Assembly: GCA_021786575.1 (NCBI GenBank)
Contig: JAJYMY010000002.1
Location: forward strand, 310,001-374,000
Direction: 5' to 3'
Length of the DNA stretch: 64,000 bases
Origin: an archaeon
GTDB lineage: Archaea > Thermoproteota > Nitrososphaeria > Nitrososphaerales > Gagatemarchaeaceae
This document shows positions 12,091 through 27,631 of this stretch, one piece after another. The translations under genes and the position numbers were made by a program. The first letter of the stretch is position 1; each line of letters begins with the position of its first letter. Below the pieces are notes generated by a model. The model had not been told where the DNA came from, made no database searches, and worked only from the letters and a program-made list of their open reading frames with translations.

Positions 12091-13140
12091 TTGCACATCG
12101 CCGCGCCATACGGCATCGGCCGGACGACGGCCGTCGTATCTGTCATTCTGATTCTGGTCGTCGCTGCAGGGGGGTTGTACGTCTACGCGGGGTCGAGCGT
12201 TGCCCCCGACAAAGTGACCCTCCTCCTCGATTTCACTCCCACATACAACCACTTCCCTTACTATTACGGCCTAGATCACGGGATCTACAAGTCTAACGGG
12301 ATTGACCTTACGATACAACCTGGGACAGGAGCGTCAGCCTCCATATCGGCGCTAGCGGCGGGAAAAGTCGACTTCGCGCTGGCAGACGTCCCCGGACTCG
12401 TGCTCGCCGAGTTGTCTTCGAACATAACCAACGTCAGGGTAGTGGCGGCCGTGTATCAGAAGACGTTCTACAGCATCTACTACAACAAAGCTACCATCAG
12501 CTCCCTCGCGGACCTAGAAGGACAGGCCGGGGGTGCGAACAGCCCCTCCACGAGCGTCCAGACTGACATGTTCTACGTCCTCGCGAAGCTCAACGGCATC
12601 AACTCGAGCTCCCTGAAGTTGAGTTACGGGAGCCAGTCTGTGATAACTCCCCTCTTCGTTTCCGGAAAGCTGCAATACATCCTGAAGCCCTTGGATTCCT
12701 ATGGAGATGTTCAGGCAGCAGCATCCGCGAATGGAATTCAGGTGGGTCTATTCCCGTTCGAAGCTTACGGGATAGACGCATACGGGTCAGCTCTGCTGAC
12801 CACCACCCAGGTGATTTCTAAAGACCCGTCACTAGTCCAGAGGATGGTCCTGGCAACCATGCAGAGCGTCGTAGCCGCCTCGAAAGATCCCGCTGGAGCG
12901 GCGGCCTCGTTGGTGAAGTACGAGCCCCAGCTCAACGAGACTTCTGCCATCGAAGGCATCAATCTCCTCCTCTCCTGCTGCATGGTGGGAGCCAACACCA
13001 CTTCGAACCCGCTTACCTATGGCTGGCTCAGTCCTGCCAGGATGCAGTCGACTCTAAACCTCGTCTTGGAAGGGACAGGCTCACAAAGCTCCCTGAACGT
13101 TTCTTCGCTCTACACGGACCAGTTCGTTCGTGCGCCCTGA
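12091..13140 (+). CDS. ABC transporter substrate-binding protein, ThiY/NMT1-SsuA type
   Basis: 349 residues. Residues ~12-32 (TTAVVSVILILVVAAGGLYV) form an N-terminal membrane anchor, followed by VTLLLDFTPTYNHFPYYYGL and GIYKSNGIDLTIQPGTG, close to the ThiY/NMT1 pattern for a pyrimidine-precursor binder, then LAAGKVDFALADVP as in SsuA/TauA. It should be the extracellular binding lobe for the permease and ATPase that follow. Start TTG is tentative; no clear SD is present. The ligand is not determined: thiamine precursor, sulfonate or an aromatic acid are all open. Confidence 0.85.
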   Translation: MHIAAPYGIGRTTAVVSVILILVVAAGGLYVYAGSSVAPDKVTLLLDFTPTYNHFPYYYGLDHGIYKSNGIDLTIQPGTGASASISALAAGKVDFALADVPGLVLAELSSNITNVRVVAAVYQKTFYSIYYNKATISSLADLEGQAGGANSPSTSVQTDMFYVLAKLNGINSSSLKLSYGSQSVITPLFVSGKLQYILKPLDSYGDVQAAASANGIQVGLFPFEAYGIDAYGSALLTTTQVISKDPSLVQRMVLATMQSVVAASKDPAGAAASLVKYEPQLNETSAIEGINLLLSCCMVGANTTSNPLTYGWLSPARMQSTLNLVLEGTGSQSSLNVSSLYTDQFVRAP

Positions 13141-13177
13141 CGCGATGTTCTTTTAGATTGAAATCCGAAGTTCGGCC

Positions 13178-13951
13178 ATGAGTCAGAGCCTCAGGCGTGC
13201 GATTAGCTCCCTCCTGCCGCCTCTCGCAGCCATCGCGCTGGTCCTGTTGGCACTTCAACTGATTATCCCTCTACTGCACATCCCGAGCTACATACTGCCT
13301 GTTCCAACTTCCGTCTTTGCTCAGTTCACCACAGGGAGAATCCCGTGGGTTGAGCACACCGTGGCGACCCTCGAGGAAGTGCTCGCCGGCTTCTTGCTCG
13401 CGGTGGTGGGAGGAATAGCCCTCGCAGTTGGAATGGTGCTTTCACGGCCGCTGCGCGCGGTCATAGAGCCTCTCGTAGTAGCTGCTCAGGTGATGCCGAA
13501 GGTCGCTTTCGCGCCTATCCTCTTTCTCTGGCTTGGGTTGAACATCATGCCACGGATACTGACGGTCTTCCTGGTCTGTTTCTTCCCCATCGTGGTGGAT
13601 GCCGTAGCTGGCTTCGAATCTTCGGAACGGGAGATGCTCGACCTCGTCACATCCTTCGACTCGAGCAAGCTCGTCCTGCTGAGGAAGGTCCAGTTCCCTA
13701 GCGCGTTGCCCAGCATCTTCGCAGGGCTCAGAGTCGCCGCCGGGCTCGCCCTCGTCGGGGCCGTGGTGGCCGAGTTCATCTCGTCAAGCTCAGGGCTGGG
13801 CTTCTTGATCCTCTCTTCCCAGGTCAGCCTGAACACCCCGCTCATGTTCGCGGCAGCGGCGGAGCTCGTCCTGATGGGGTTCTTGTTCTATGGCTCTGTT
13901 GCGCTTCTAGAGCGGCTCTTGGTACCGTGGAGGGAGCCCCAGCACGCTTGA
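13178..13951 (+). CDS. ABC transporter permease, SsuC/ThiX type
   Basis: 257 residues with six or so membrane helices and the BPD-transporter inner-membrane loop with its EAA-like stretch around EREMLDLVTSFDSSKLVLLRKVQFPSALP split over two helices, followed by GLRVAAGLALVGAVVAEF. It pairs with the binding protein upstream (37 bp gap) and ATPase downstream (22 bp gap). CTTTTAGATT at 13150-13159 lies about 24 nt before the ATG, so a secondary promoter is possible. Confidence 0.9.
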   Translation: MSQSLRRAISSLLPPLAAIALVLLALQLIIPLLHIPSYILPVPTSVFAQFTTGRIPWVEHTVATLEEVLAGFLLAVVGGIALAVGMVLSRPLRAVIEPLVVAAQVMPKVAFAPILFLWLGLNIMPRILTVFLVCFFPIVVDAVAGFESSEREMLDLVTSFDSSKLVLLRKVQFPSALPSIFAGLRVAAGLALVGAVVAEFISSSSGLGFLILSSQVSLNTPLMFAAAAELVLMGFLFYGSVALLERLLVPWREPQHA

Positions 13952-13973
13952 CGGTCCCCGCCCCCTGGTTTCA

Positions 13974-14741
13974 GTGAGGTCTGTCTCGAAGACCTACACG
14001 ACCAGCAAAAAGGGGGTCGTCAGGGCGATAGATTCAGTCTCATTCGACGTCAAGGCAGGAGAGTTCGTGTCCATCGTGGGGCACTCAGGGTGTGGCAAGA
14101 CCACCCTGCTGAGGATCATCACAGGCCTGACCGAACCGACCACTGGGAGCGTGACAATCTCCGGCAAGGCCGTCGCGTTGCCCATGCGAGGGGTGGGACA
14201 TGTCTATCAAAAGCCTGCGTTGATGCCCTGGAGAAGCGCCATCGAGAACGTCCTCCTTCCCATTGAACTGCTCCATGGTGATAAGGAATCCGCCCGGAAG
14301 AAAGCCTCGGCCCTTCTGGCCAGCGTAGGGCTGAAGGGCTTCGAGTCGTTGTATCCTCGAGAACTCTCGGTCGGGATGCAACATCGGGTAAGCCTGGCCC
14401 GTGCGCTGATTCACGACCCACAGATACTCGTAATGGACGAGCCGTTCGGGTCGCTTGACGAACTCACGAGGGAAGAGATGGCCACCGAGCTGTTGAAGAT
14501 CACGGAGAGCCTGAATAAGACCGTGTTCTTCGTCACCCATAGCGTTTCAGAGGCGGTCATGCTTGGGGATCGGGTGCTGGTGCTGTCTCCAAGACCTTCA
14601 AAGCTCGTCAGCGATGTGGCTATCAACGTCCCCCGGCCGAGAACCGAGAAGGTGAGAACGCAATCGTCCTTCATCGCCTACTGCGAGGAGATACGTAGCC
14701 GTCTCGGTTCTAACCTCGAAGGTCAACGTCCGGTTCAGTAG
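13974..14741 (+). CDS. ABC transporter ATPase, SsuB/TauB type
   Basis: 255 residues: Walker A GHSGCGKTT, Q-loop YQKPALMPW, signature ELSVGMQHRVSLARAL, Walker B ILVMDEPFGSLD, and switch His in FFVTHSVSEAV. The signature reads LSVGM where LSGGM is usual; the first Gly is replaced by Val. Start GTG at 13974 gives an N-terminus a few residues short of typical homologues, and no better start is in frame. It energises the importer of the two preceding genes. Confidence 0.9.
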   Translation: MRSVSKTYTTSKKGVVRAIDSVSFDVKAGEFVSIVGHSGCGKTTLLRIITGLTEPTTGSVTISGKAVALPMRGVGHVYQKPALMPWRSAIENVLLPIELLHGDKESARKKASALLASVGLKGFESLYPRELSVGMQHRVSLARALIHDPQILVMDEPFGSLDELTREEMATELLKITESLNKTVFFVTHSVSEAVMLGDRVLVLSPRPSKLVSDVAINVPRPRTEKVRTQSSFIAYCEEIRSRLGSNLEGQRPVQ

Positions 14742-14881
14742 GATCTCCATTGTGTGCGCAGATTGAGCCACGCCTAGCAGGGCGATCGTCGCATCTGAAG
14801 CCGAGGGCTTTCCCCGACGTGATGCCCTCTCCAGCGTCGAGGGTATCTCATGGTGGTCATGGAGCAGGGCGTTAACCGATT

Positions 14882-14890
14882 GATTTAATG
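14882..14890 (+). promoter_or_regulatory. TATA box of second PaaK-like gene
   Basis: GATTTAATG centred 30 nt upstream of TTG 14916, in the 174-bp gap after the ABC genes; predicts a near-leaderless transcript separate from the transporter. Confidence 0.5.
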
Positions 14891-14915
14891 GGGCAGGTCA
14901 ACCCCTTCATCTCCT

Positions 14916-16247
14916 TTGTTAGTGGAAGACGCGAAGACCTACATCGAAGCGTTCAGAAACTCGAGAATCTCCAGAGAAGAGCTGAGGGAGCTCCAGTACA
15001 AGAAGCTGAGGCGAGTAATCGCCTTGGCTTACCAAAATGTACCTTTCTACAGGCGTAGGTTCGCTCGCGCCTCGACCCTTGAGGGCTTCGGCTTCAGGTC
15101 CCTCGAAGACCTCAGGACGCTACCAATCCTCGAAAGGAGCGATGTGGAACGCAATGGAGAGGCGATGATATCGCAGAACCTCATCAACACTTTAGGATCT
15201 TACTCGTCGACCACCGGCACCAGCGGGGCCAGGATTAGGCTTGCTTTCTCTCGGGAGTACCATGCAGTGACTACAGCGATGACGGTGAGGCACCTGCTCC
15301 ACTATGGAGCGAGGCCGTGGCATCGAATAGTATCAATCTGGCCCCCGACCTCCTATTGGCGCCCTGGACAAGACAGGGATGGGCGGCTGAAGCGAGATAC
15401 GTTCTCACTCTCCTTCCCGCTCGGAGTGCTTGGGCGGCCCCTTCCCTTTCTGAAGCCGTTGTTGAGTTCAAATTGGGATGTCGAGCGGGACGCCGAAGTC
15501 CTGAGGAGCATGAACCCAGATTTCGTGATATGCAGGCCGTCAAACCTCAGGCGGATTGGGCGATTTCTAAAGGCCAGAGGCGAAAGCATCCATCCCAGAG
15601 GGCTCGTCCTAACGAACGAAGTATTCACCCAAACCTGCGCCAGAGAGTTAGAAGGGCTATATGGTTCAGAGATCTTCTGGGGGTATGGCGCAGCCGAAGT
15701 CGGTCCGATGGGTGCAGTCTGCACGGCTCACAGGGGACTCCACTTCAATGAGGACTTCATCTTCCCCGAAGTCCTCAAGGACGACGAGCCAGTCGGACCA
15801 GGCGAAACGGGCGAGCTCGTGGTAACCTCGCTCCATAACCCCCTGATGCCGTTCATCAGGTACCGGCTGGGAGATGTCGTGGAAATGGCAGACGGAGAAG
15901 CTTGCCCTTGTGGCTCGAACCTGATGAGGATCAGGAAGGTGCTGGGGCGGAAGGCAGACTGGCTTATGAACAGTCGCCGGGAGCAGGTTTCGCCCTTGAC
16001 GGTTGCTGACTGGGCTGAATCCAGTCTTGGGCTGGCAGACTATCAGCTGATACAGCTCGATGTAGGCAGGTTCCTGCTCAAGACTTCCCCCGACGAAGCG
16101 CCGAGCCCTTCTGCGCTCCAGCGCCTGAAGCAATACCTAGAATCGACAATGGAGACCGACGTGGTGGTCGAGACTTCCTATAGGACTCCGGACGAGTTTT
16201 GGTCCAAGTCCAGACCCGTGTTGAGCAGGGTGACCCTGTCGCGATGA
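14916..16247 (+). CDS. PaaK/CapK-like adenylate-forming enzyme, paralogue 2
   Basis: 443 residues, same family as the gene at 10648. Matching blocks are SSTTGTSGARIRLAFSREY, GYGAAEVGPMGAVC, GLHFNEDFIFPEVL, YRLGDVVEMADGEACPCGSNL and terminal FWSKSRPVLS. Both have HFNED/HLNED after the A5 region and ICRPSNLRRIG/FCRPSHLRRIG, so they share a recent subfamily and perhaps a substrate class. Start TTG, or GTG two codons on. Its role is inferred only from family: acyl adenylation and CoA or carrier loading, with unknown acid. Confidence 0.82.
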   Translation: MLVEDAKTYIEAFRNSRISREELRELQYKKLRRVIALAYQNVPFYRRRFARASTLEGFGFRSLEDLRTLPILERSDVERNGEAMISQNLINTLGSYSSTTGTSGARIRLAFSREYHAVTTAMTVRHLLHYGARPWHRIVSIWPPTSYWRPGQDRDGRLKRDTFSLSFPLGVLGRPLPFLKPLLSSNWDVERDAEVLRSMNPDFVICRPSNLRRIGRFLKARGESIHPRGLVLTNEVFTQTCARELEGLYGSEIFWGYGAAEVGPMGAVCTAHRGLHFNEDFIFPEVLKDDEPVGPGETGELVVTSLHNPLMPFIRYRLGDVVEMADGEACPCGSNLMRIRKVLGRKADWLMNSRREQVSPLTVADWAESSLGLADYQLIQLDVGRFLLKTSPDEAPSPSALQRLKQYLESTMETDVVVETSYRTPDEFWSKSRPVLSRVTLSR

Positions 16248-16299
16248 GTCCCCAGTGATCGCCGACAGGCGGACGCTCTCAGCGTGGCCATCCTTGGCG

Positions 16300-17604
16300 T
16301 CAGTGCATATCGGCGGTCCTCGTTTCGTGCACTACCAGTCCTGCCACGATGGAGACTGCGGTGATCCCGAATATAGTGATTGCCACATAATTGGCGGCGC
16401 CAACTGCGCCCCCAAAAGCGGCGATGTAAAGTGGTATGACGAGGGTCGTCAGCGACCCCGTCACCAGAACCGGGATGTTGTAGGCGAGCCCGACCCCTGA
16501 GAACCTATGGCTTGTCGGAAAGGACTCCGCGAAGAGGGCGGGCGCGCTCGCATAGCCAAACGATGAGCTGATCCCGAGGAGGGCGAATCCTAGCACTACC
16601 GGCCCCACTGAAGATGTGTGAAGGAGAGGATAGAACAGTAGGATGGGAATAAGACATGCTACCCCTCCTGCGATGAGGGTGGCCTTTCTCCCAAATCTGT
16701 CCGCGAGGAGCGTGGCCGCAGGAGTTACGACAAGCTCAGGCGTCCTCCCCAACACCAAGAGTTCGGCAGCGAAGGTGACGCCGACCCCCACCTTCGTCAG
16801 ATAGTTCAGAGAGAAGGACTGGAGCATCACGAGGATGATGGACAGGAACCCAGTGGTGGACACCCCCAGGGCAAGTATGGTCCCCCAGTCCTTCTTCGCT
16901 GCGGAGATGACAGGCGCCTTCACCAGTGCGTTCCTGGCCTTCGCCTCCAAGTACAAAATGTCCCTCGTAAATCTGTACCTTACGACGACGCCCACAAGGA
17001 GCGCCGCCGCCCCCCCTATGAAGAGGAGCCTCCACCCGGACCCGAGAAACTCTGCCCGAGGCAGTACAGCCGAGACAGCGTAGAACATACTGAAGGAGAG
17101 CAGGGCACCAGCGGTGCGCGACACAGAAAGGAACCCGGTCCAGAACGACCTCCTATTGGTGTCAGCGGCAGCTTCGGCCACCCAAGTCGCGGACCCAGAC
17201 AGCTCTCCTCCGAATCCGATTCCCTGAAGGACGCGCATGGCCACCACGAGCAGCGGCGCGAGCGCCCCAATAGCCTCATAGCTGGGGACCAGTCCGAGCC
17301 CGAGGGACCCTATACCCATCAGGGAGAGGGTCAGGACAAGCGACGGCTTCCTTCCTCGCCGGTCCCCCAGGTGGCCGAACAATGCGGCGCCAACTGGTTG
17401 GAAGAGCAAGGCGGAGCCGTAGGTCCCGAAGGAGAGAGCGAAGCCTGCCGCGGAGCTAGACGAGGGGAAGAAAACGAATGGCCAGACAAGCGCTGCGCAG
17501 GCACCCGCGAGCGCGAAGTCATAATACTCGGCGACGGTTCCAATGGTGGCGAGGAGCGTGACGCTCTTGACGTGCGAGCCTGGCTCGGGGTCGGTCGCAC
17601 GCAC
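16300..17604 (-). CDS. MFS transporter, metabolite:H+ symporter (MHS) family
   Basis: 434 residues, 12 predicted helices. The start TIGTVAEYYDFALAGACA and loop GHLGDRRGRKPSL between helices 2 and 3 are typical of the MHS family (ProP, ShiA, KgtP, PcaT types), with a second copy LADRFGRKATL in the C-terminal half. These proteins carry organic acids or osmolytes with protons. It converges with the PaaK-like gene, so uptake of an organic acid for that enzyme is plausible but unproven. Start GTG with TATA-like AAAATTATTATC centred 29 nt upstream. Confidence 0.88.
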   Translation of the reverse strand: MRATDPEPGSHVKSVTLLATIGTVAEYYDFALAGACAALVWPFVFFPSSSSAAGFALSFGTYGSALLFQPVGAALFGHLGDRRGRKPSLVLTLSLMGIGSLGLGLVPSYEAIGALAPLLVVAMRVLQGIGFGGELSGSATWVAEAAADTNRRSFWTGFLSVSRTAGALLSFSMFYAVSAVLPRAEFLGSGWRLLFIGGAAALLVGVVVRYRFTRDILYLEAKARNALVKAPVISAAKKDWGTILALGVSTTGFLSIILVMLQSFSLNYLTKVGVGVTFAAELLVLGRTPELVVTPAATLLADRFGRKATLIAGGVACLIPILLFYPLLHTSSVGPVVLGFALLGISSSFGYASAPALFAESFPTSHRFSGVGLAYNIPVLVTGSLTTLVIPLYIAAFGGAVGAANYVAITIFGITAVSIVAGLVVHETRTADMH

Positions 17605-17627
17605 TCAGGACGCAGTCAGCCTTGCTG

Positions 17628-17639
17628 ATAATAATTTTG
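17628..17639 (-). promoter_or_regulatory. TATA box of MFS gene
   Basis: Minus-strand AAAATTATTATC, strongly A/T in a GC-rich gap, centred about 29 nt before the GTG start. Confidence 0.55.
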
Positions 17640-17957
17640 CGCCGCTCGCCGGGCCAGCCTGACTGTCCCACGGCTCCCATCTTACAGCGTCGTGATCAAA
17701 CCCGCCCTTGAACTTTCGATTCTTGGTCCAATGGGACCTCGTAGAGTCCGTTTTCATCGACGCCCAGAAGAGGAGCGGTACCACTCATGCTTCAGGCCCA
17801 CCTTGGCGATACGCGGTCGGCCCTGGCCGAGACCGGGCAGGTCTTCCAGGGGCCCGGTTACCGCTCGGCCAGCGATGACGCGTCTTCCTCGCGAAAAGGT
17901 TGGCGTAAGTCCGGGTCGCTCGGTGTGAGTGGAGGACCATGCGCCCCTGATGTGACC
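17640..17957. other. Intergenic region, no gene seen
   Basis: About 320 bp between the MFS promoter and the end of the GT2 gene. No frame looks coding, and no repeat or tRNA was recognised. It contains the 5' flank of one transcript and the 3' end of another. Confidence 0.5.
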
Positions 17958-18860
17958 CTAAGCAGGCGTCGTGCGCCCGGCTTGATACAGGGGGCTCCGC
18001 ACCACTGATATCATGATCCAGATTATCAGCGCTGTAATGGCCAATATGAGCCCGACCAGGATGGCTCCCATCGAAATTAGCGTTGTGCCGATTATCACCT
18101 TGTGGACGTCTTCGTAGATACGTAGAGCGTTCGATCCTAGATACAACCCGTACAACATGAACGCGAACCCTGGGATACCATAGACGATCAGCGGATGGAG
18201 TATCGATACGTGCTTGATGGTCGCAAAGACGACTTCAACCCCGTGATAGACAGGGTTCCTGCTTGCCCCTTTCTCGTATGACACGTTGATGGGGACCTCG
18301 ACAATCCTTAAGCTTGCCCGGCTTGCTTTAAGAAGGATCTCGGTGCTCGCGCCCATGCCGAGCTCAGTAGGTAAGACCGATGAGATTGCGTCGAGGGCGT
18401 ACGCCCTGAACCCCGACTGTGCGTCTGACACCTTGAGGTCTCCCACACTGTTGGAGAGGCCTGTGATCGCCTTTATCCCCACGGTCCTATACCTCGGCAT
18501 CTTGCGGTCACCGGCCAGAAACCGCGAGCCTATCACTATGTCTGCCTCTCCTTTGAGCAAAGGCTCTATCACTATGGGGATCTCGTCGGGGTCGTGCTGC
18601 CCGTCTCCGTCGAGCGTCACCACGACGCCCGCTCCTATTTCCTTGGCCCTTGTCAAAAGGGTCGAAAGTGCGGCTCCGTAGCCAAGGTTGTGCGAGGTTC
18701 TGATTACTTCGGCTCCCAGAGACTCAGCGATCCTCCCGGTCATGTCGGTGGACCCGTCGTCACAGACTACCACTCGGTTCGAGTGCTCCTTGGCCTTTAC
18801 GATGACCTTCGCTATCGTGCCCTCCTCATTGTGAGCTGGTATGAGCACTGTGACGTCCAT
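17958..18860 (-). CDS. GT2 glycosyltransferase, dolichyl-phosphate sugar synthase-like, with two C-terminal TM helices
   Basis: 300 residues from ATG 18860. N-terminal GT-A domain: VTVLIPAHNEEGTIAKV, CDDGSTD, LDGDGQHDPDEIP (DxD-type metal site) and GSRFLAG. Two hydrophobic segments follow (YGIPGFAFMLYGLYLG, and a longer one ending IIWIMISVV). It should charge a polyprenyl phosphate with a sugar for surface glycan assembly. The start was chosen because GATATATGG on the minus strand is centred 27 nt upstream; longer starts at 18884 (ATG) and 18914 (TTG) exist but would place that TATA box inside the gene. Confidence 0.88.
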   Translation of the reverse strand: MDVTVLIPAHNEEGTIAKVIVKAKEHSNRVVVCDDGSTDMTGRIAESLGAEVIRTSHNLGYGAALSTLLTRAKEIGAGVVVTLDGDGQHDPDEIPIVIEPLLKGEADIVIGSRFLAGDRKMPRYRTVGIKAITGLSNSVGDLKVSDAQSGFRAYALDAISSVLPTELGMGASTEILLKASRASLRIVEVPINVSYEKGASRNPVYHGVEVVFATIKHVSILHPLIVYGIPGFAFMLYGLYLGSNALRIYEDVHKVIIGTTLISMGAILVGLILAITALIIWIMISVVRSPLYQAGRTTPA

Positions 18861-19488: not shown

Positions 19489-20076
19489 TTGAAAGGTGCA
19501 TCACGCCGCCGAAGGATCGGGACGATTCTCTTCATGGTGCCTATTGTCATAGTAGGAGCCGCCGTGTTCTACGCATTGGTCACCTCTGTGGGTCCGGGCA
19601 CCGGGACCCTCGTGGTGAACGCGTACCTGGAGAACGGGAGCGGTGGGACGTCCGAAATCCGAGTCCAGGCCACTGTGGATGGAAACAGCGTCCTTACTCC
19701 CTACAACGCTACTATGACCCAAGGCCCGTATACTGTCACCTTCCCCCAGGTCAAATGGTACGTCACCCCCCCTGAGCACAGCCTGGTGCTCGAGTCAGGT
19801 AAGACAGCCTACGCCGTAGGGATTTACACGCCGATCAAAGTCGTCATAGGGGTCTCGCAGCAAGGATTCAATGATACCGAGGCCGCAGCCCTCCATTCGG
19901 TCACCCCGGTGGAGTGGGTCAACACCGGGACAACAAGCGTGACGCTGAGCGTAGGGGGGGTCGGGGACTTCGCGCTTGCTCCTGGGCAGGGGTTCACTTG
20001 GGTCTTCCAGACCGCCGGCACATCCACCTTTTCTATAATTGGTACGCAGATTTCAGGGAAGATCACCATCTCGTAG
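19489..20076 (+). CDS. Membrane-anchored extracellular protein with cupredoxin-like C-terminal domain lacking copper ligands
   Basis: 195 residues. The N-terminus has four basic residues (SRRRRIG) then one hydrophobic helix (TILFMVPIVIVGAAVFYALV), so it should be anchored with the rest outside. The last ~65 residues (SVTPVEWVNTGTTSVTLSV ... PGQGFTWVFQTAGTSTFSI) follow the strand order of a cupredoxin, but the usual Cys and C-terminal His ligands are missing. A middle beta-rich domain (GTLVVNAYLENGSGGTSEI) is not recognised. Start TTG. Role unknown; a structural or sensing surface protein is one guess. Confidence 0.65.
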   Translation: MKGASRRRRIGTILFMVPIVIVGAAVFYALVTSVGPGTGTLVVNAYLENGSGGTSEIRVQATVDGNSVLTPYNATMTQGPYTVTFPQVKWYVTPPEHSLVLESGKTAYAVGIYTPIKVVIGVSQQGFNDTEAAALHSVTPVEWVNTGTTSVTLSVGGVGDFALAPGQGFTWVFQTAGTSTFSIIGTQISGKITIS

Positions 20077-20244: not shown

Positions 20245-22032
20245 TCAGGACACTTGGAACACCCGGACGTTAGGATTGTAATAGACCAAAGTCACGCCAG
20301 CGGTAGGTTTGTACGTGAACCATGGGAGATACGGGGCTGAGTCGTTGGCCGGCTGCAAGACCTGGCTGAAGAACACATCGTGCTTGGTGACGATGATGTA
20401 GGAGAGGCCGTTGGACCTGGCATAGGAGATAGCCTGGGTCTCGTTCCCCATGTACTCATAGGTGCAGTTATGCCCTATCTGAAGCGCCGAGTACAAGAAA
20501 GTCGGGTCTGTGACCGAAAGAAAAGACGAGGAAGGGGGTGTGTTCTCCTCGAGCCAGGTCATGGTCGCGTTGACCTGTGACTGTACCGTCGCTTGTTTGC
20601 CAGACTCTAGCGCGAGGCTCTGCGTGAACGATGACGCCCATCCAGTAGCAACTATCGGGGTCAGGAAGAGGAGTACGAACATCACGGCGGCGAACTTGTA
20701 GGGGTCGCCTTTCCTCAATCTCGCCTGTTTGCGAGCCCTTGTGCTCGGTATCATCGAGTTCAGCCCGTACCCGGCTAGTATCGTCAAGGGCATTATCGCT
20801 TCGAGCTCGAACCTCCAAGCAGCGTAGTCCTGTGGGGAGGCGATCAGCAAAGCGAAGAACCAGATGGCGAAGGGGAGAATGGCGTAATCCTTGCGCTTGT
20901 ACCCTCTGTACAACGAGAAGGCCAACAACGTAATGGCGGCCAGAAACCCGATGTCATTCCTCACGTCAAATGCAAGGTAGGCTATAGACGGCAGAAAGCT
21001 GAGCGCTTTCGAAAGATAGGTGGTCAGCGGCTGCGGGGCGCCGCTGGTGTAAGAGATGACCAGCGCCAAGTCGAGCTGCCTTCTGAACGCCAGGGCGCCA
21101 AGAGCTCCGGGGATAAGGAATGCGATGGTTGCGACAGCCGTCCCTTTGAATTGCGGGCTCCTCATCATCGCAAGGGCCAACGACAGGATCGCGAATGTAC
21201 CGAAGACAGAGAGAACCGAATAGTGCGAAAAGTATGCGGCTAGGACGACTGGCGCCGAAAGCAGCCAGAGCGAACGGCTGCGGGGGTTCTTGGCGAGGTC
21301 GATGAACGTGACCAAGAGGACGAGCTCGAGCAGAGTCCCGACGAAGTTCGGATAAAGGCCATCCACGAACACCATCTGCGTCCAGATGCTCCCTGACAGG
21401 GAGTAGATCGCCGTGACCAACAACCCGCTTCGCTTGTCGCCAGTGAGACTGAGCGTCGTCGCATACACCAAGGTGGGGGACAGGGTTGCCAGGATGGACA
21501 TCGAGACCTGGGCTGTCTGAATCCCCGTAGAGCCGACGGCTAGGAACGCAGCGGCGGTCTGGTAGTATCCCGCGCCGTAAAGCACTAACCTGGGGATGGA
21601 GGTCAGGGTGCCACTGATCAGCTCGCGAGGGGAGCCCACCAAGGCTATGAAGTCGGGGTTGTAGTCCCGAGGAAAGATCGGATAGGACACGAAATAGAGC
21701 CAAGCGATGGCGCCGATCACCGCCACGCATCCAAGGACGCCTATCGACTCCTTGTCGACCCTAGGCAACCCTGCGACCCTCCGCCTTCGCACGACCGCCA
21801 CCAGGTACATGACGGCTCCGAGGGCGACGAGGAAATAGAGAGAGTAGACGTCCAGCCCCACGAGGGCGATTCCACCAAATCTGAAACCGGTGGTCTCTAT
21901 GACCAAGACCGCCGTGTCGACAGCTAGCCCGTAGCCGAGTGAATGCCCGATCCGGTGGATGAGGTCGTCCCCTCCCTTCCATCTTCCGGCGAGTTCCCCA
22001 ATGCCGTACCCAGGAACAAGAACCGAGGCCAA
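20245..22032 (-). CDS. Large polytopic membrane protein, possible GT-C-type glycosyltransferase
   Basis: 595 residues, about 11-12 hydrophobic helices in the first ~440 residues and a soluble C-terminal domain of ~120 residues containing TMTWLEENTPPSSSFLSVTDP. An early loop with YNPDFIALVGSP and the overall layout resemble GT-C enzymes that use lipid-linked sugars, but no motif proves it. The TTG at 22030-22032 cuts a membrane helix: upstream codons in frame read SPFYAGYILYL before a TAG at 22069-22071, so the N-terminus is probably longer with a non-standard start or has decayed. Neighbouring GT genes support a surface glycan role. Confidence 0.65.
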   Translation of the reverse strand: MASVLVPGYGIGELAGRWKGGDDLIHRIGHSLGYGLAVDTAVLVIETTGFRFGGIALVGLDVYSLYFLVALGAVMYLVAVVRRRRVAGLPRVDKESIGVLGCVAVIGAIAWLYFVSYPIFPRDYNPDFIALVGSPRELISGTLTSIPRLVLYGAGYYQTAAAFLAVGSTGIQTAQVSMSILATLSPTLVYATTLSLTGDKRSGLLVTAIYSLSGSIWTQMVFVDGLYPNFVGTLLELVLLVTFIDLAKNPRSRSLWLLSAPVVLAAYFSHYSVLSVFGTFAILSLALAMMRSPQFKGTAVATIAFLIPGALGALAFRRQLDLALVISYTSGAPQPLTTYLSKALSFLPSIAYLAFDVRNDIGFLAAITLLAFSLYRGYKRKDYAILPFAIWFFALLIASPQDYAAWRFELEAIMPLTILAGYGLNSMIPSTRARKQARLRKGDPYKFAAVMFVLLFLTPIVATGWASSFTQSLALESGKQATVQSQVNATMTWLEENTPPSSSFLSVTDPTFLYSALQIGHNCTYEYMGNETQAISYARSNGLSYIIVTKHDVFFSQVLQPANDSAPYLPWFTYKPTAGVTLVYYNPNVRVFQVS

Positions 22033-22477: not shown

Positions 22478-22510
22478 AGTAGACCATTTGTCCACTACGG
22501 TTATATATAG
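22478..22510 (+). promoter_or_regulatory. S-layer gene promoter with upstream dyad
   Basis: TTATATATAG at 22501-22510 is the best TATA box in the window, centred about 32 nt before ATG 22537, so the leader is ~5 nt. Just upstream, AGTAGAC (22478-22484) and GTCCACT (22490-22496) form an imperfect dyad with one mismatch, placed where a BRE or operator would sit. Confidence 0.6.
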
Positions 22511-22536
22511 AATCCTGGCCGCAACCCTGAAAATAA

Positions 22537-25515
22537 ATGTATACGCCTACGAATGCGTATCAAAGAAAATTTAGCTCAGGACTTCTACTCTCACTCCTAG
22601 CGTTTTCGGCTCTACTCATCCTGGTGCCCTTGGTGACGCCGGTGAGCGCCGCGAACGCCTCTCCCCCAACTGTCACACTTAGTCAGAACGTAGTGTCTGG
22701 CTCTGCCTCGGAGGCGATAACGGTGTCGAACCCGAGCAGCAACGCCTACGCTCTCACGGCCTTGACGATCACAGCGCCGTCGGGATGGACATTCTCGACA
22801 GCTAACTACGAAACTTCAGACTATGGCTGCCACTCGACCTCGTCTAGCGTGTCTTGCACGCTTGCGCTCTCGCCGGGGGCATCCGTCACCACATTTGACT
22901 TCTTCAGCATCGCGACAGCCCCCGCTCCGTCTACCGCCAACGCGATAACCGGGACGGTGACGACGACGGTTCAGGACGGCTCTTCGGCCGCGTACTACGC
23001 AGGACCGACCCAGAAGCTGTACTCCGTCGGCGCTTCAGCGGCTCTCGCAATCTCATACGGTGCCACCGACTCTTGCGTGACCGGGACCTACACAGCAGGT
23101 ACGCCCGCATGCAACCCAACGGTGACCCTCACCACAACGAACAACCTCGGCAACGCTGGCGTGCCGATTGAGTGGGCGGTGACGTCCACCTACGGCACAG
23201 TCTCTCCCACAACGGGGGTGACTGCAGCTAGCGCGAACGGAGGTGTCGCAAGCACGACATTCCAGCCGACTGACACGGTAGCCGATGGCCCCTCAGCCAT
23301 AAAGGCGTCAGCCGGGACCAGCACCGCAATCACGCCAGCCCCGAGCAGTATAGCTACAGGACCTGGTGCGCCCTCAGAGGTAACATTCCTCATAAGCGGC
23401 GAATCCAGCAACTACCTCAGCACCCAAGGGACTACCACAAACACCTCGCCAACGACCCACACTACCTTCACCGGTGCTGAACTCGCAGCCGCGAGCGGCA
23501 CCTATTCGATCGCCGACAAGTTCGGCAACTCGATTGCTTTCAACACAGCCAACCTCGTCGTCAGCTCGGTCTCCTTGACCGCCCTCTCGGCAAGCGGCGT
23601 CTTCGACACCACCAACCTCCCCTCAACCGTCAGCTGCACAACGAACGCCGCGTGCATCGCCACGCCATACGGCACCGGCAGCGCGGTCAGCGGGGACCTC
23701 CCGTACAACTACTTCCAGTCCGGCGTCTATGGTTCTGTCGGTCAGTTCAGCGCCACCATAAGCGGAACTTATGGGGCGGGAGCTACCGCCTTTACAATAG
23801 CCGGTAACAGCGGGACAGCGACTACAGGGACCTTCTCAGCGACGTCGCCCACCCCGGCCGTCAGCAACGCCGCTCCAACGGCGGGCTCTTCAATCAGCGT
23901 CTACGCCACGCTCCCTACAGTCCAGCAGGGTGTTCCAGTGAACATCGCCCTGGACTTGCCAGGAACCGGCGCAGTGACGCTGGGTGACGGTGCCTACGTG
24001 GGTACCTTCTCCAACGGACTCCAATACATCACCCTAGACACCAACAGCTCAGGGATGGTCCAAACCTCCTTCAAGGTCGACACGCTGGAAGGCGCCGAAG
24101 TCACGTTCACGATGAACGCGACCGCGCCCACCTACGCCGCGCCGACCCACGACCTAGCCAACGTAACCGGGACAGTACCGCAGGCAACAACAGCAGCAGG
24201 CCCCGCGGCCTCGTTCAAGGTTAACGCCTACTACTACGCGTCAGGGAACCCGCCGGTCTTCAGCGGCCCAGCGACCAACACCGTCTCCTCAGGGACGCTC
24301 TACCTCGACGTAACCCTGGTAGATGCCTACGGGAACGATGTGACGCTCGCCGCGAATGCCAACACGCTCCAGGTGAACCTGGCGGCGTCTACGGGTCTCC
24401 TCTCAGCGACAAACGTCTACATCACTGCAGGCCACTCCACCACAGGGTCGTCCTTCGGTGCGGTAATCTACACCGCTCCGTCGACACTAGGGACCGCCAA
24501 GATCACCGCTACTGGCGTGGTCGCAGGGCAGGCAGTCTCCGGTGAAACGACCATCGGCGTGGTCAGCGCGAATCCAACAATAGGTGTCAGCTCACCGCTT
24601 CCAATGTCCGGCGTGATCTATGCAAATAGCACGCCTGTCGTATTCCACGGCAGCGCGAACGCCTCGATCGGTTATCCGACCACCGGCGTGGCAGCAGCGA
24701 CCATCGCGTCGGTCTGCTACACTGCAGGGACTCTGTCGAGTTGCTCGTCAGAGACGGCGAACCAGGTCACTTGGGCAATCGCGGTCAACATTGGCGCGGG
24801 TCTGCACACCATATCGTTCAACGCCACCGACAGCAATGGGAACACCGCACAGACAGGGACTTACTCGGTGCTCGTCGACACGAGCGCTCCGAGCGTCAAC
24901 TTCGTGACGGTCCCCAACGCTAACATCTCCTCGCCAGCGACGGTAACCGCCACGATCACCGACAGTCTGGGTGACCTCAACTCATCCAGCGTCAGCGCAG
25001 TGGCGACCAACATCCAGACCTCAGCCACGCAGACCCTGTCGGTCAGCGTGTCCGGCACCAATAACGTCGGGCACAGCGTGACGTACGGTGTCACCATCTC
25101 CGGTCTCACGACCGGGAACTGGAGCATCGCACTGAGCGCGGCAGACCTAGCGGGCAACGTGAACAGCAGCCAAACGCTGACCGTCCACGTGACCGTCCCG
25201 TTCGCACAGTCCTTCGTGGTCTCAGGCACCCCACAATCAGCGACGATAGGTTCGTTCTCAGGCATCAGCGCGTCGTACACCAACCTGAACCCGACCGCTC
25301 AGAGCGTCGTGGTCTTCGCCGTCTATAAGAACGGCGCCGGCCAGACGGTGGGCATCGGGACAGGGAGCCTCACAGTCGGGGCAGGTGTGACGCAGTCGGT
25401 GTTCATCGCGGAGCCGGTAGGCCTCGCGAGCGGCACCTACTCTGTGAGCATCTTCGTCTTCACCACGGGTAACCTGCCCGTATCAGTATCTACATCAATC
25501 TCCGTCACCGTCTAA
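22537..25515 (+). CDS. Secreted SlaA-like S-layer protein
   Basis: 992 residues. A Sec signal peptide (GLLLSLLAFSALLILVPLVTPVSA) is followed by a Ser/Thr/Ala/Gly-rich, beta-strand-rich protein with many NxS/T sequons and Ig-like or cadherin-like segments (TISFNATDSNGNTAQTGTYSVLVDTSAPSV split across two strands). There is no C-terminal membrane helix. It ends in a ~100-residue domain (FVVSGTPQSATIGSFSGISA ... SVSTSISVTV) that recurs in the gene at 26451. It has a strong near-leaderless promoter. With the coiled-coil membrane protein 13 bp downstream it fits a SlaA/SlaB two-component S-layer. Confidence 0.82.
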   Translation: MYTPTNAYQRKFSSGLLLSLLAFSALLILVPLVTPVSAANASPPTVTLSQNVVSGSASEAITVSNPSSNAYALTALTITAPSGWTFSTANYETSDYGCHSTSSSVSCTLALSPGASVTTFDFFSIATAPAPSTANAITGTVTTTVQDGSSAAYYAGPTQKLYSVGASAALAISYGATDSCVTGTYTAGTPACNPTVTLTTTNNLGNAGVPIEWAVTSTYGTVSPTTGVTAASANGGVASTTFQPTDTVADGPSAIKASAGTSTAITPAPSSIATGPGAPSEVTFLISGESSNYLSTQGTTTNTSPTTHTTFTGAELAAASGTYSIADKFGNSIAFNTANLVVSSVSLTALSASGVFDTTNLPSTVSCTTNAACIATPYGTGSAVSGDLPYNYFQSGVYGSVGQFSATISGTYGAGATAFTIAGNSGTATTGTFSATSPTPAVSNAAPTAGSSISVYATLPTVQQGVPVNIALDLPGTGAVTLGDGAYVGTFSNGLQYITLDTNSSGMVQTSFKVDTLEGAEVTFTMNATAPTYAAPTHDLANVTGTVPQATTAAGPAASFKVNAYYYASGNPPVFSGPATNTVSSGTLYLDVTLVDAYGNDVTLAANANTLQVNLAASTGLLSATNVYITAGHSTTGSSFGAVIYTAPSTLGTAKITATGVVAGQAVSGETTIGVVSANPTIGVSSPLPMSGVIYANSTPVVFHGSANASIGYPTTGVAAATIASVCYTAGTLSSCSSETANQVTWAIAVNIGAGLHTISFNATDSNGNTAQTGTYSVLVDTSAPSVNFVTVPNANISSPATVTATITDSLGDLNSSSVSAVATNIQTSATQTLSVSVSGTNNVGHSVTYGVTISGLTTGNWSIALSAADLAGNVNSSQTLTVHVTVPFAQSFVVSGTPQSATIGSFSGISASYTNLNPTAQSVVVFAVYKNGAGQTVGIGTGSLTVGAGVTQSVFIAEPVGLASGTYSVSIFVFTTGNLPVSVSTSISVTV

Positions 25516-25528
25516 TCGGGTGGCCACC

Positions 25529-26275
25529 ATGAAGACACTCCCAGCAATCGCCGCAGTCTCGATCGCGCTGGTCCTTGCGCTTTCGCCTATGATCGCCACC
25601 GCTGCTGGTAGCATAACGTTCACCAGCCCAGCGGCCGGCGCCTCATACAGCGGCTCGCAGGCCTACACGATCTCCGGCACCATAAGCCCCGCACCGACCC
25701 AACCCGACCAGGTGGGTCTCACCGTAAAGAACCCATCAGGCCAGACAGTCGACATTGCGAGCGTGACCGTCTCAAGCGGCTCGTTCACCTATTCGACGGC
25801 TGTCGGCGGAACGTCGGCCTGGATCAGCGGGACTTACACAATCACGGCCCTCGATTCATACGGAGCGACGGGTACAACCACCTTCACATACACTGCACCG
25901 GCGTCATCATCGTTCAACGAGACCGCAGCGCTCCTGCAGGTCAACGCCACCCTGAACAAGGTGCTGGCGAACCAGCAGACGATAATGAACGACCTTGCCG
26001 CCATCACATCGACGTTGGGCACCGTCTCCTCTGCGGTGGGGACAATCTCCTCTACTGTGGGGACAATCAGCACCAACGTTGGCACCATCCTCAGCAACAT
26101 CAACGGCCTTACCTCCACGGTGGGGAGCATCCAGACAACGGTCAACAGCATCCAGTCTTCGTTGCCCTCGGGCAGCGCCATCTCGGCTACCCAGACGTAT
26201 GTCTTGGTAGTCGCCGTACTCGCAGCGATAACCCTAGTCCTAGAGCTAGCAATTTTAGTCAGGAAGATCTCGTAA
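25529..26275 (+). CDS. SlaB-like S-layer anchor: signal peptide, beta domain, coiled coil, C-terminal TM helix
   Basis: 248 residues from ATG 25529, preceded by GGTGG with a 5-nt spacer (GTG 25520 is an alternative). Signal peptide AIAAVSIALVLALSPMIATAA; one Ig-like beta domain (ITFTSPAAGASYSGSQAYTI); then ~90 residues of heptad-like T/S-V-G-x-I repeats (STLGTVSSAVGTISSTVGTI and onward) that should form a parallel coiled coil; and a terminal helix YVLVVAVLAAITLVLELAIL with a short basic tail. This order is that of Sulfolobales SlaB, the trimeric stalk that holds SlaA. Sequence identity to SlaB is not claimed. Confidence 0.8.
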   Translation: MKTLPAIAAVSIALVLALSPMIATAAGSITFTSPAAGASYSGSQAYTISGTISPAPTQPDQVGLTVKNPSGQTVDIASVTVSSGSFTYSTAVGGTSAWISGTYTITALDSYGATGTTTFTYTAPASSSFNETAALLQVNATLNKVLANQQTIMNDLAAITSTLGTVSSAVGTISSTVGTISTNVGTILSNINGLTSTVGSIQTTVNSIQSSLPSGSAISATQTYVLVVAVLAAITLVLELAILVRKIS

Positions 26276-26450: not shown

Positions 26451-26855
26451 TTGAGGTCGCACCTGCCCGGTTTGTTCCTGCTGGCTGTCTGCTTGCTCCT
26501 GGTCTCAATGGCGCCTCTCAGCAGCGCGGCGGCCCCAGACTACCTCACCAACGCGATTTCACAGTCAGGGATGAAGCAGGTCACAATCGGCAGCTACCAG
26601 GGGGTGATGGTGAACTACACCAGCACCTACGCCACGTCCTTCACCTCGTTCGTCTACCTTGGCTTGACCAACCATGCCGGCCAGGTCGTCTATTGGAACG
26701 TAGCCTCTTGTTCATTCTCGGCAGGCCAGGAGGTGCAGTGTTTCGTGGCCGTGTCCCCCACGGTGCCGTCGGGGGCATACACCGCCACTGTCTTCACGAC
26801 CACCGCTACGGACGTCCCTGTCTCTCTCGTCGGCTCCCTCAACGTGACGTTGTAG
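26451..26855 (+). CDS. Small secreted protein homologous to the C-terminal domain of the SlaA-like protein
   Basis: 134 residues: signal peptide GLFLLAVCLLLVSMAPLSSAA, then one domain whose blocks match the last ~100 residues of the 992-residue S-layer protein: QVTIGSYQGVMVNYT against SATIGSFSGISASYT, VPSGAYTATVFTTTATDVPVS against LASGTYSVSIFVFTTGNLPVS, and final SLNVTL against SISVTV. It adds two Cys (ASCSFSAGQEVQCF) that may form a disulfide. Start TTG supported by the TATA distance. It may cap or fill the lattice, or be a minor S-layer subunit. Confidence 0.72.
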   Translation: MRSHLPGLFLLAVCLLLVSMAPLSSAAAPDYLTNAISQSGMKQVTIGSYQGVMVNYTSTYATSFTSFVYLGLTNHAGQVVYWNVASCSFSAGQEVQCFVAVSPTVPSGAYTATVFTTTATDVPVSLVGSLNVTL

Positions 26856-26923: not shown

Positions 26924-27631
26924 ATGAGGGCGATCATTCTCAGCGGCGGCCTGGGGATGCGACTGCGACCCCTGACAGACGACAAGCCTAAGGCCCTGAT
27001 ACCTGTCAACGGCAAGCCGATCGCCGAGTACCAAATCCAGTGGCTGGTCAAGGAGGGAGGCGTCGACGCTGTGACCTTCGCCTGCGGCTACAAGTGGGAG
27101 AGGCTGAGGGAGCACTTCGGGGCGAGCTTCGAAGGGGTCGCCGTGGACTACTCCGTGGAGGCCGAGCCACTCGGGACAGGCGGCGGGATCAAGAAAGCTA
27201 TAGCGAAGTACCCGTCCGAAGAGACCTTCGTGGTCACCAACGGGGACATCGTCACCGACCTCCCGTTGAAGAGGATGATCGACGACTACGGCGGGGCCGG
27301 CGGGGTTTCAGCCTCCATGCTCGTGGTCCCTTACCGGTCAAGATTCGGCGTGGTGAAGATAGACAAGCTCAAGATGATCAGAGGGTTCGACGAGAAGCCG
27401 GCCTTCCCTGACGTATGGATCAACGGCGGGGTCTATGTCCTCAACGGGCCAAGGATCGCGAAGAACCTGCCTGACAAGGGGGACATAGAGAGGGAGACCT
27501 TCCCCAAACTAGTCACCTACGGGGCGCTACTCTCCTACCCATATTATGGTGAGTGGACGTTCGTCGACTCGCTGAAGGACCTGAAGGAGCTCGAAGAAGC
27601 CATGACCGCCCCCGCCCCAAGGCCAGACTGA
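26924..27631 (+). CDS. Sugar-1-phosphate nucleotidyltransferase
   Basis: 235 residues starting at ATG 26924, where the family's N-terminal motif begins: IILSGGLGMRLRPLTDDKPKAL, broken here as the nucleotide-binding loop, then PLGTGGGIKKA, VTNGDIVTDL and EWTFVDSLKDL. The frame stays open upstream to 26693 but overlaps the previous gene and lacks family sequence. GCATTTATCG (26883-26892) is a likely TATA box. It resembles the short mannose-1-P guanylyl / heptose-1-P (HddC-like) transferases with no C-terminal beta-helix. Together with the HldE-like kinase at 28935 it may feed nucleotide-sugar synthesis for surface glycans. Confidence 0.85.
   Translation: MRAIILSGGLGMRLRPLTDDKPKALIPVNGKPIAEYQIQWLVKEGGVDAVTFACGYKWERLREHFGASFEGVAVDYSVEAEPLGTGGGIKKAIAKYPSEETFVVTNGDIVTDLPLKRMIDDYGGAGGVSASMLVVPYRSRFGVVKIDKLKMIRGFDEKPAFPDVWINGGVYVLNGPRIAKNLPDKGDIERETFPKLVTYGALLSYPYYGEWTFVDSLKDLKELEEAMTAPAPRPD

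Follow-up and report, generated by a model that had tools for sequence, protein, structure and literature searches.

The S-layer of Sulfolobales is made from two proteins, SlaA and SlaB, of which SlaA is far more variable (PMC10903991). SlaB homologues have also been described in most Nitrososphaerota (von Kugelgen et al. 2024, PMC11153153), and in Nitrosopumilaceae a SlaB homologue is encoded downstream of the S-layer protein (SLP) NmSLP (8C8K). A one-gene design is known from Staphylothermus marinus, where tetrabrachion, with its 11-residue repeats, has a stalk 70 nm long (PMC5744192). The locus described here bears on transitions between one- and two-component S-layers, with both designs in one genus and at one genomic position. 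We analysed a 64,000-nucleotide stretch of archaeal DNA (the window) from a 755-kb bin of two contigs, estimated to be 49% complete. In named collections, its relatives are archaeal MAGs that carry the labels Thaumarchaeota or Nitrososphaerota; one of them, palsa_1368, has been placed in Gagatemarchaeaceae, Group I.1c (PMC10640624). The organism belongs to Nitrososphaeria, and probably to Group I.1c. The window carries a slaA-like and a slaB-like gene that very probably encode the S-layer unit, lattice plus membrane stalk, of a soil or mine-water archaeon.

The slaA-like gene (22537..25515, + strand; supported by the reading frame, conservation in relatives and an AlphaFold2 model) has 992 codons counted from its ATG. 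The first-pass annotation had described a protein of 992 residues with a signal peptide and no membrane anchor, and the reading frame and a hydrophobicity scan agree: the N-terminal signal peptide (22537..22653, +), which the fused proteins of sister species also have, is the sole hydrophobic stretch of a protein predicted to be secreted, anchor-free and beta-rich. There are 12 N-glycosylation sequons and very few charged residues, and AlphaFold2 modelled a chain of beta-sandwich domains, tandem and Ig-like, with a mean pLDDT of 70. Among relatives, mean identity was about 0.7 in the C-terminal Ig-like domain (25213..25512, +) and about 0.3 in residues 150–350. This domain, the best-conserved part of the protein, is the presumed dock for SlaB.

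We compared the SlaA-like family with known S-layer proteins, using an alignment in which one row (L085) begins with 45 extra residues owing to a miscalled start. The last 85–90 residues of the family matched the last domain of Nitrososphaeria SLPs, such as that of N. maritimus, in a profile-profile comparison (E 4.5e-7), and adding free-standing copies of the domain to the profile brought the match to E 2.1e-8. The family profile had no match to the NmSLP 8C8K chains up to E 1. Homology to Sulfolobales SlaA was not detected: the family profile did not match the solved SlaA, and the 50 best fold matches of the 992-residue protein, which were generic Ig arrays only, did not include SlaA. We conclude that its C-terminal domain links the SlaA-like protein to Nitrososphaeria SLPs, with no descent from Sulfolobales SlaA visible in its sequence.

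The slaB-like gene (25529..26275, +; 248 aa) lies directly downstream across a gap of 13 nt, an arrangement kept in relatives, and the conservation of both proteins there indicates that the pair is not a chance reading frame. Translation starts at the ATG at 25529, since most relatives keep this codon, as ATG or TTG, together with a G(G)GTGG ahead of it, ruling out a GTG at 25520; the GGGTGG itself (25518..25523, +), kept at most slaA-slaB junctions, is the probable slaB ribosome binding site. With this start, the protein has the signal peptide, beta domain, coiled coil and C-terminal helix that had been attributed to it. Coiled-coil and structure prediction, proposed in the first-pass annotation as a check, gave a single Ig-like sandwich at residues 28–122 (25610..25894, +), which also has a profile match to Nitrososphaeria SlaB homologues, an 81-residue heptad coil modelled as a helix at residues 131–211 (25919..26161, +), and a membrane helix at residues 220–247. 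The last of these is the C-terminal membrane anchor, TYVLVVAVLAAITLVLELAILVRKIS (26186..26269, +), which is kin to the anchors of SlaB homologues and shares identity with the fused proteins. The coil has mostly I/V at position a and V/L at position d, with a strict period of 3.5 residues that was reached by none of 5000 shuffles (periodicity power of 4.5 at 3.5 residues, versus 0.04 at 3.667). A beta-branched a/d core in general favours trimers over dimers.

All 11 SlaB-like members matched the NCBIfam SlaB model NF040788, a Metallosphaera SlaB model (best E 1.4e-10). The window protein matched directly at E 3e-8 and in register through the last residue of the model, with a score far under the curated cut-off of 700 bits, so that it does not qualify as an equivalog of the Metallosphaera protein. 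When the coil heptads or the anchor of the SlaB tail were shuffled, the score of 26.6 bits fell by at least 7 bits, to 19 at most. Sulfolobus acidocaldarius alone matched among 14 control genomes, and within the order the model found proteins mostly of 270–430 residues, via their N-terminal domain. Compared with the PDB, the coil drew mainly unrelated coiled coils (reovirus sigma-1, viral spikes); because these score equally, we did not take coil likeness as proof of SlaB kinship, and judged kinship instead by the shuffled controls and by the non-coil Ig and anchor segments. The window SlaB family matched ten Nitrososphaeria SlaB homologues at E 7e-18 over signal peptide and Ig domain, and at E 6e-12 with the anchor alone, and the ten homologues in turn matched the Sulfolobus SlaB of 8QOX (E 1.2e-11). 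The chain of evidence is thus complete without the coil, and we assign the 248-residue protein, via these intermediates, to the SlaB family as a true member. A profile match of the fused protein to the 8QOX SlaB (E 2e-13) rests mostly on low-complexity coil and was discounted. The window's genome also encodes a second SlaB-like paralogue of 226 aa (G000:C1:54073-54573), with counterparts of 220–235 aa in many relatives.

These comparisons bear on the possibility that the pair is a true Sulfolobales-type SlaA/SlaB, with SlaA homologous too, acquired from Sulfolobales in acidic habitats. A SlaB-family stalk protein fits such an origin, as do relatives that apparently come from acidic-habitat MAG projects, going by isolate names. 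However, the large protein finds only generic Ig folds and not the solved SlaA, its C-terminal domain is of the Nitrososphaeria type, and SlaB is closer to its relatives in the class than to Sulfolobales SlaB, making vertical descent simpler; we regard acquisition from Sulfolobales as highly implausible. The first-pass identification of the pair as SlaA lattice and SlaB stalk holds for the SlaB homology, the gene order and the division between the two proteins, but not for the large protein as a SlaA homologue. Sequence variability is divided as in Sulfolobales, with identities in G022, G008 and G009 of 66, 50 and 55% for SlaA versus 93, 91 and 88% for SlaB.

An SLP-slaB pair is common elsewhere in the class. 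In eight of the nine Nitrososphaeria SlaB-homologue loci that we read (L073 and L165 to L171, the exception being L164), slaB lies directly behind a gene for an S-layer-type secreted protein of 1150–1770 aa that ends in the SLP C-terminal domain, and one of these upstream genes is the NmSLP orthologue. We take the two-gene unit to be the usual state of the class on the basis of these loci. In G045, a genome of the same order, the surface protein matches NmSLP 8C8K over its full length, indicating that the order includes Nitrosopumilus-type archaea. Hence, contrary to the first-pass reading, the pair is not unusual outside Sulfolobales, with SlaB homologues already published (PMC11153153), and the contrast drawn with a "single main protein" in Nitrososphaeria fails for the loci read.

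We then compared the pair with its counterparts within the genus. Among 31 genomes, 13 have the split pair and 11 a single fused protein, seven have neither, and none has both full-length forms; the chance of zero overlap between 13 and 11 in 31 is about 4e-4 if genomes are taken as independent and relatedness is ignored. The fused protein has about 810–910 residues (one of the 11 is only partly assembled). Its first 37 residues match the SlaA signal peptide (hhalign, 37 columns, E 2.3e-8, 41% identity) and its last 42 are 67% identical to the SlaB anchor over 42 columns (E 4e-22). It carries a SlaB-type coil and anchor behind a slaA-type promoter and signal peptide, with an ectodomain that differs from that of SlaA, and no sign of the SLP C-terminal (docking) domain was found in the fused proteins. 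The same nucleotidyltransferase, Rieske, kinase and transketolase-like genes follow shortly downstream of split and fused loci alike; locus comparison identified the nucleotidyltransferase gene (26924..27631, +) as the marker of this conserved downstream flank in the window. Between Rieske and 168-aa genes, relatives have a membrane protein of ~984 aa, putatively MMPL-like as judged from its N-terminus, that the window lacks between 28130 and 28424.

The two forms also share a promoter. A palindrome, TAGAC-CATTT-GTCCA (22480..22494, +; family consensus TGGAC-N5-GTCCA), lies ahead of the TATA box. Of the 19 S-layer promoters compared, split and fused, 16 match with at most one mismatch and all 19 with at most two; among random 80-mers, 25 of 5580 match. 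In every one of the promoters the palindrome lies exactly 21 nt upstream of the TATA box. Neither a search within the window alone nor whole-genome counts made the palindrome stand out; its meaning comes from position and conservation only, on which grounds it is probably the operator of some regulator. The TATA box, TTATATA (22501..22507, +), lies at −36 with a predicted leader of a few nucleotides, features that all 19 promoters share, and the motif GAAAATAA (22529..22536, +), conserved in split and fused promoters, abuts the ATG, in line with the strong TATA box and near-leaderless start read in the first pass. The family layout is the palindrome, 21 nt, TTATATA or a close variant, and GAAAATA or similar at the start codon. 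Codon usage was not shifted towards that of EF-2, which lends no support to the high expression proposed in the first pass.

On a tree of the flanking genes, four changes between split and fused forms are required, and well supported branches leave no alternative for three of these. An EF-2 tree, which is less resolved, needs four too; the trees thus call for at least three to four switches. In their own tree, the fused proteins divide into the same two groups of species, and both forms therefore seem to be long established in the genus. Since the class has the split form, we take fusion to be derived, although this polarity is inferred. Among the seven genomes that have neither form, one that is 94% complete (G010) has the flank with no S-layer gene beside it; the unit is thus not universal in the genus. 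Paralogues of the fused ectodomain, in frames of about 580–630 aa that match the ectodomain model except over its last third, occur elsewhere in fused-type genomes (G015:C1:1621565-1622980, G013:C36:983-2308 and G021:C11:155818-157179), and are a possible source of the fused ectodomain. G015 also has two equal-scoring copies of the fused gene, 45 kb apart (C1:1243680-1245746 and 1289097-1291163). We lean towards the view that the S-layer locus of the genus is an exchangeable cassette with a fixed promoter/operator and signal peptide at one end and a fixed anchor and flank at the other, between which species would switch repeatedly from a two-component (lattice plus stalk) to a one-component (fused) coat or back, exchanging the whole outer protein as they do so, fusion making the SLP docking domain dispensable. 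With both designs at one locus, the effect of separating lattice from anchor becomes directly comparable.

A third gene (26451..26855, +), identified by sequence match and having its own TATA box and a TTG start, encodes a secreted protein of 134 aa that amounts to the SlaA C-terminal domain on its own (34% identity to SlaA 896–991). It is present in 12 of the 13 split genomes, beside slaB in 11, and was found as a small gene in none of the 11 fused genomes. That the fused form lacks the domain, and that the split form has a stand-alone copy of it alongside, suggests that the domain is the contact between lattice and stalk, an idea testable in Nitrosopumilus and relatives too. Upstream of slaA, a gene for a 195-aa N-terminally anchored beta protein (19489..20076, +) has homologues of about 40% identity in six split loci and no match seen in fused loci; it precedes slaA in most split loci, and in the window is separated from it by a gene for a 595-aa membrane protein without a Pfam match (20245-22032, −). 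Other S-layer loci have homologues of the latter at their flanks, L064 even three in tandem (12115-18022), and the protein is possibly an S-layer glycosyltransferase.

We propose that the 992-residue protein is exported and would form the outer lattice from its tandem Ig-like domains, and that the SlaB-family protein would form the stalk, probably as a trimer, with its coiled coil spanning the pseudo-periplasm and its C-terminal helix serving as membrane anchor. Contact to SlaB would probably be made by the conserved C-terminal domain of SlaA, and the 134-aa protein may share or cap the docking site. Sister species would make the unit as one chain that keeps promoter, signal peptide and anchor, lacks the docking domain, and needs neither dock nor third protein. 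The sequences show that SlaB, the SlaA C-terminal domain, the promoter, the signal peptide and the anchor are homologous, that the locus is the same and that the two forms exclude each other; lattice formation, trimerisation, docking and abundance of the pair are what we infer.

The same distribution weighs on a second alternative, that the two proteins make up a minor and variable structure at the cell surface, an adhesin or decoration on a stalk, with the true lattice protein encoded elsewhere. The bin is 49% complete, which leaves room for a further lattice gene in the part not recovered; codon usage is not adapted, Ig arrays are generic folds, and seven genomes of the genus have neither form. 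Against this stand the slaA-slaB order, which is that of the proven NmSLP locus, the homology of the C-terminal domain and the stalk to those encoded there, and the strict mutual exclusion with a fused form under a common promoter. We consider a minor structure improbable, and read the split of 13, 11 and none with both, behind the same promoter and before the same flank, as suggesting that lattice and stalk act as one unit.

Compared with described systems, the fused form of the sister species resembles tetrabrachion in layout, with beta arms, coiled-coil stalk and anchor from one gene, but the coil measured in the window protein is short and built of heptads, and not a right-handed coil of 11-residue repeats. 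The split form resembles SlaA/SlaB of Sulfolobales (8QOX) in having a soluble outer lattice and an anchored coiled-coil stalk, in gene order, and in pairing a conserved SlaB with a fast-evolving SlaA; it differs in that its large protein has no detectable homology to Sulfolobales SlaA and its SlaB has one beta-sandwich rather than two to three. The split form also resembles the pair of Nitrosopumilaceae, in which an SLP gene with a homologous C-terminal domain (NmSLP, 8C8K) is likewise followed on the same strand by slaB, whose product also has signal peptide, Ig, coil and C-terminal anchor. NmSLP, however, has about 1,730 aa and ten Ig domains versus 992 aa in the window, the rest of the chain being not detectably alike, and the Nitrosopumilaceae SlaB has 319 aa versus 248 aa with a single Ig domain. 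No third docking-domain gene has been described for the NmSLP system, and the window has one. The SLP and SlaB pair is thus ordinary for the class and already known; what is new here is the comparison of split and fused forms at one locus, and their alternation at the same promoter and anchor is its notable part.
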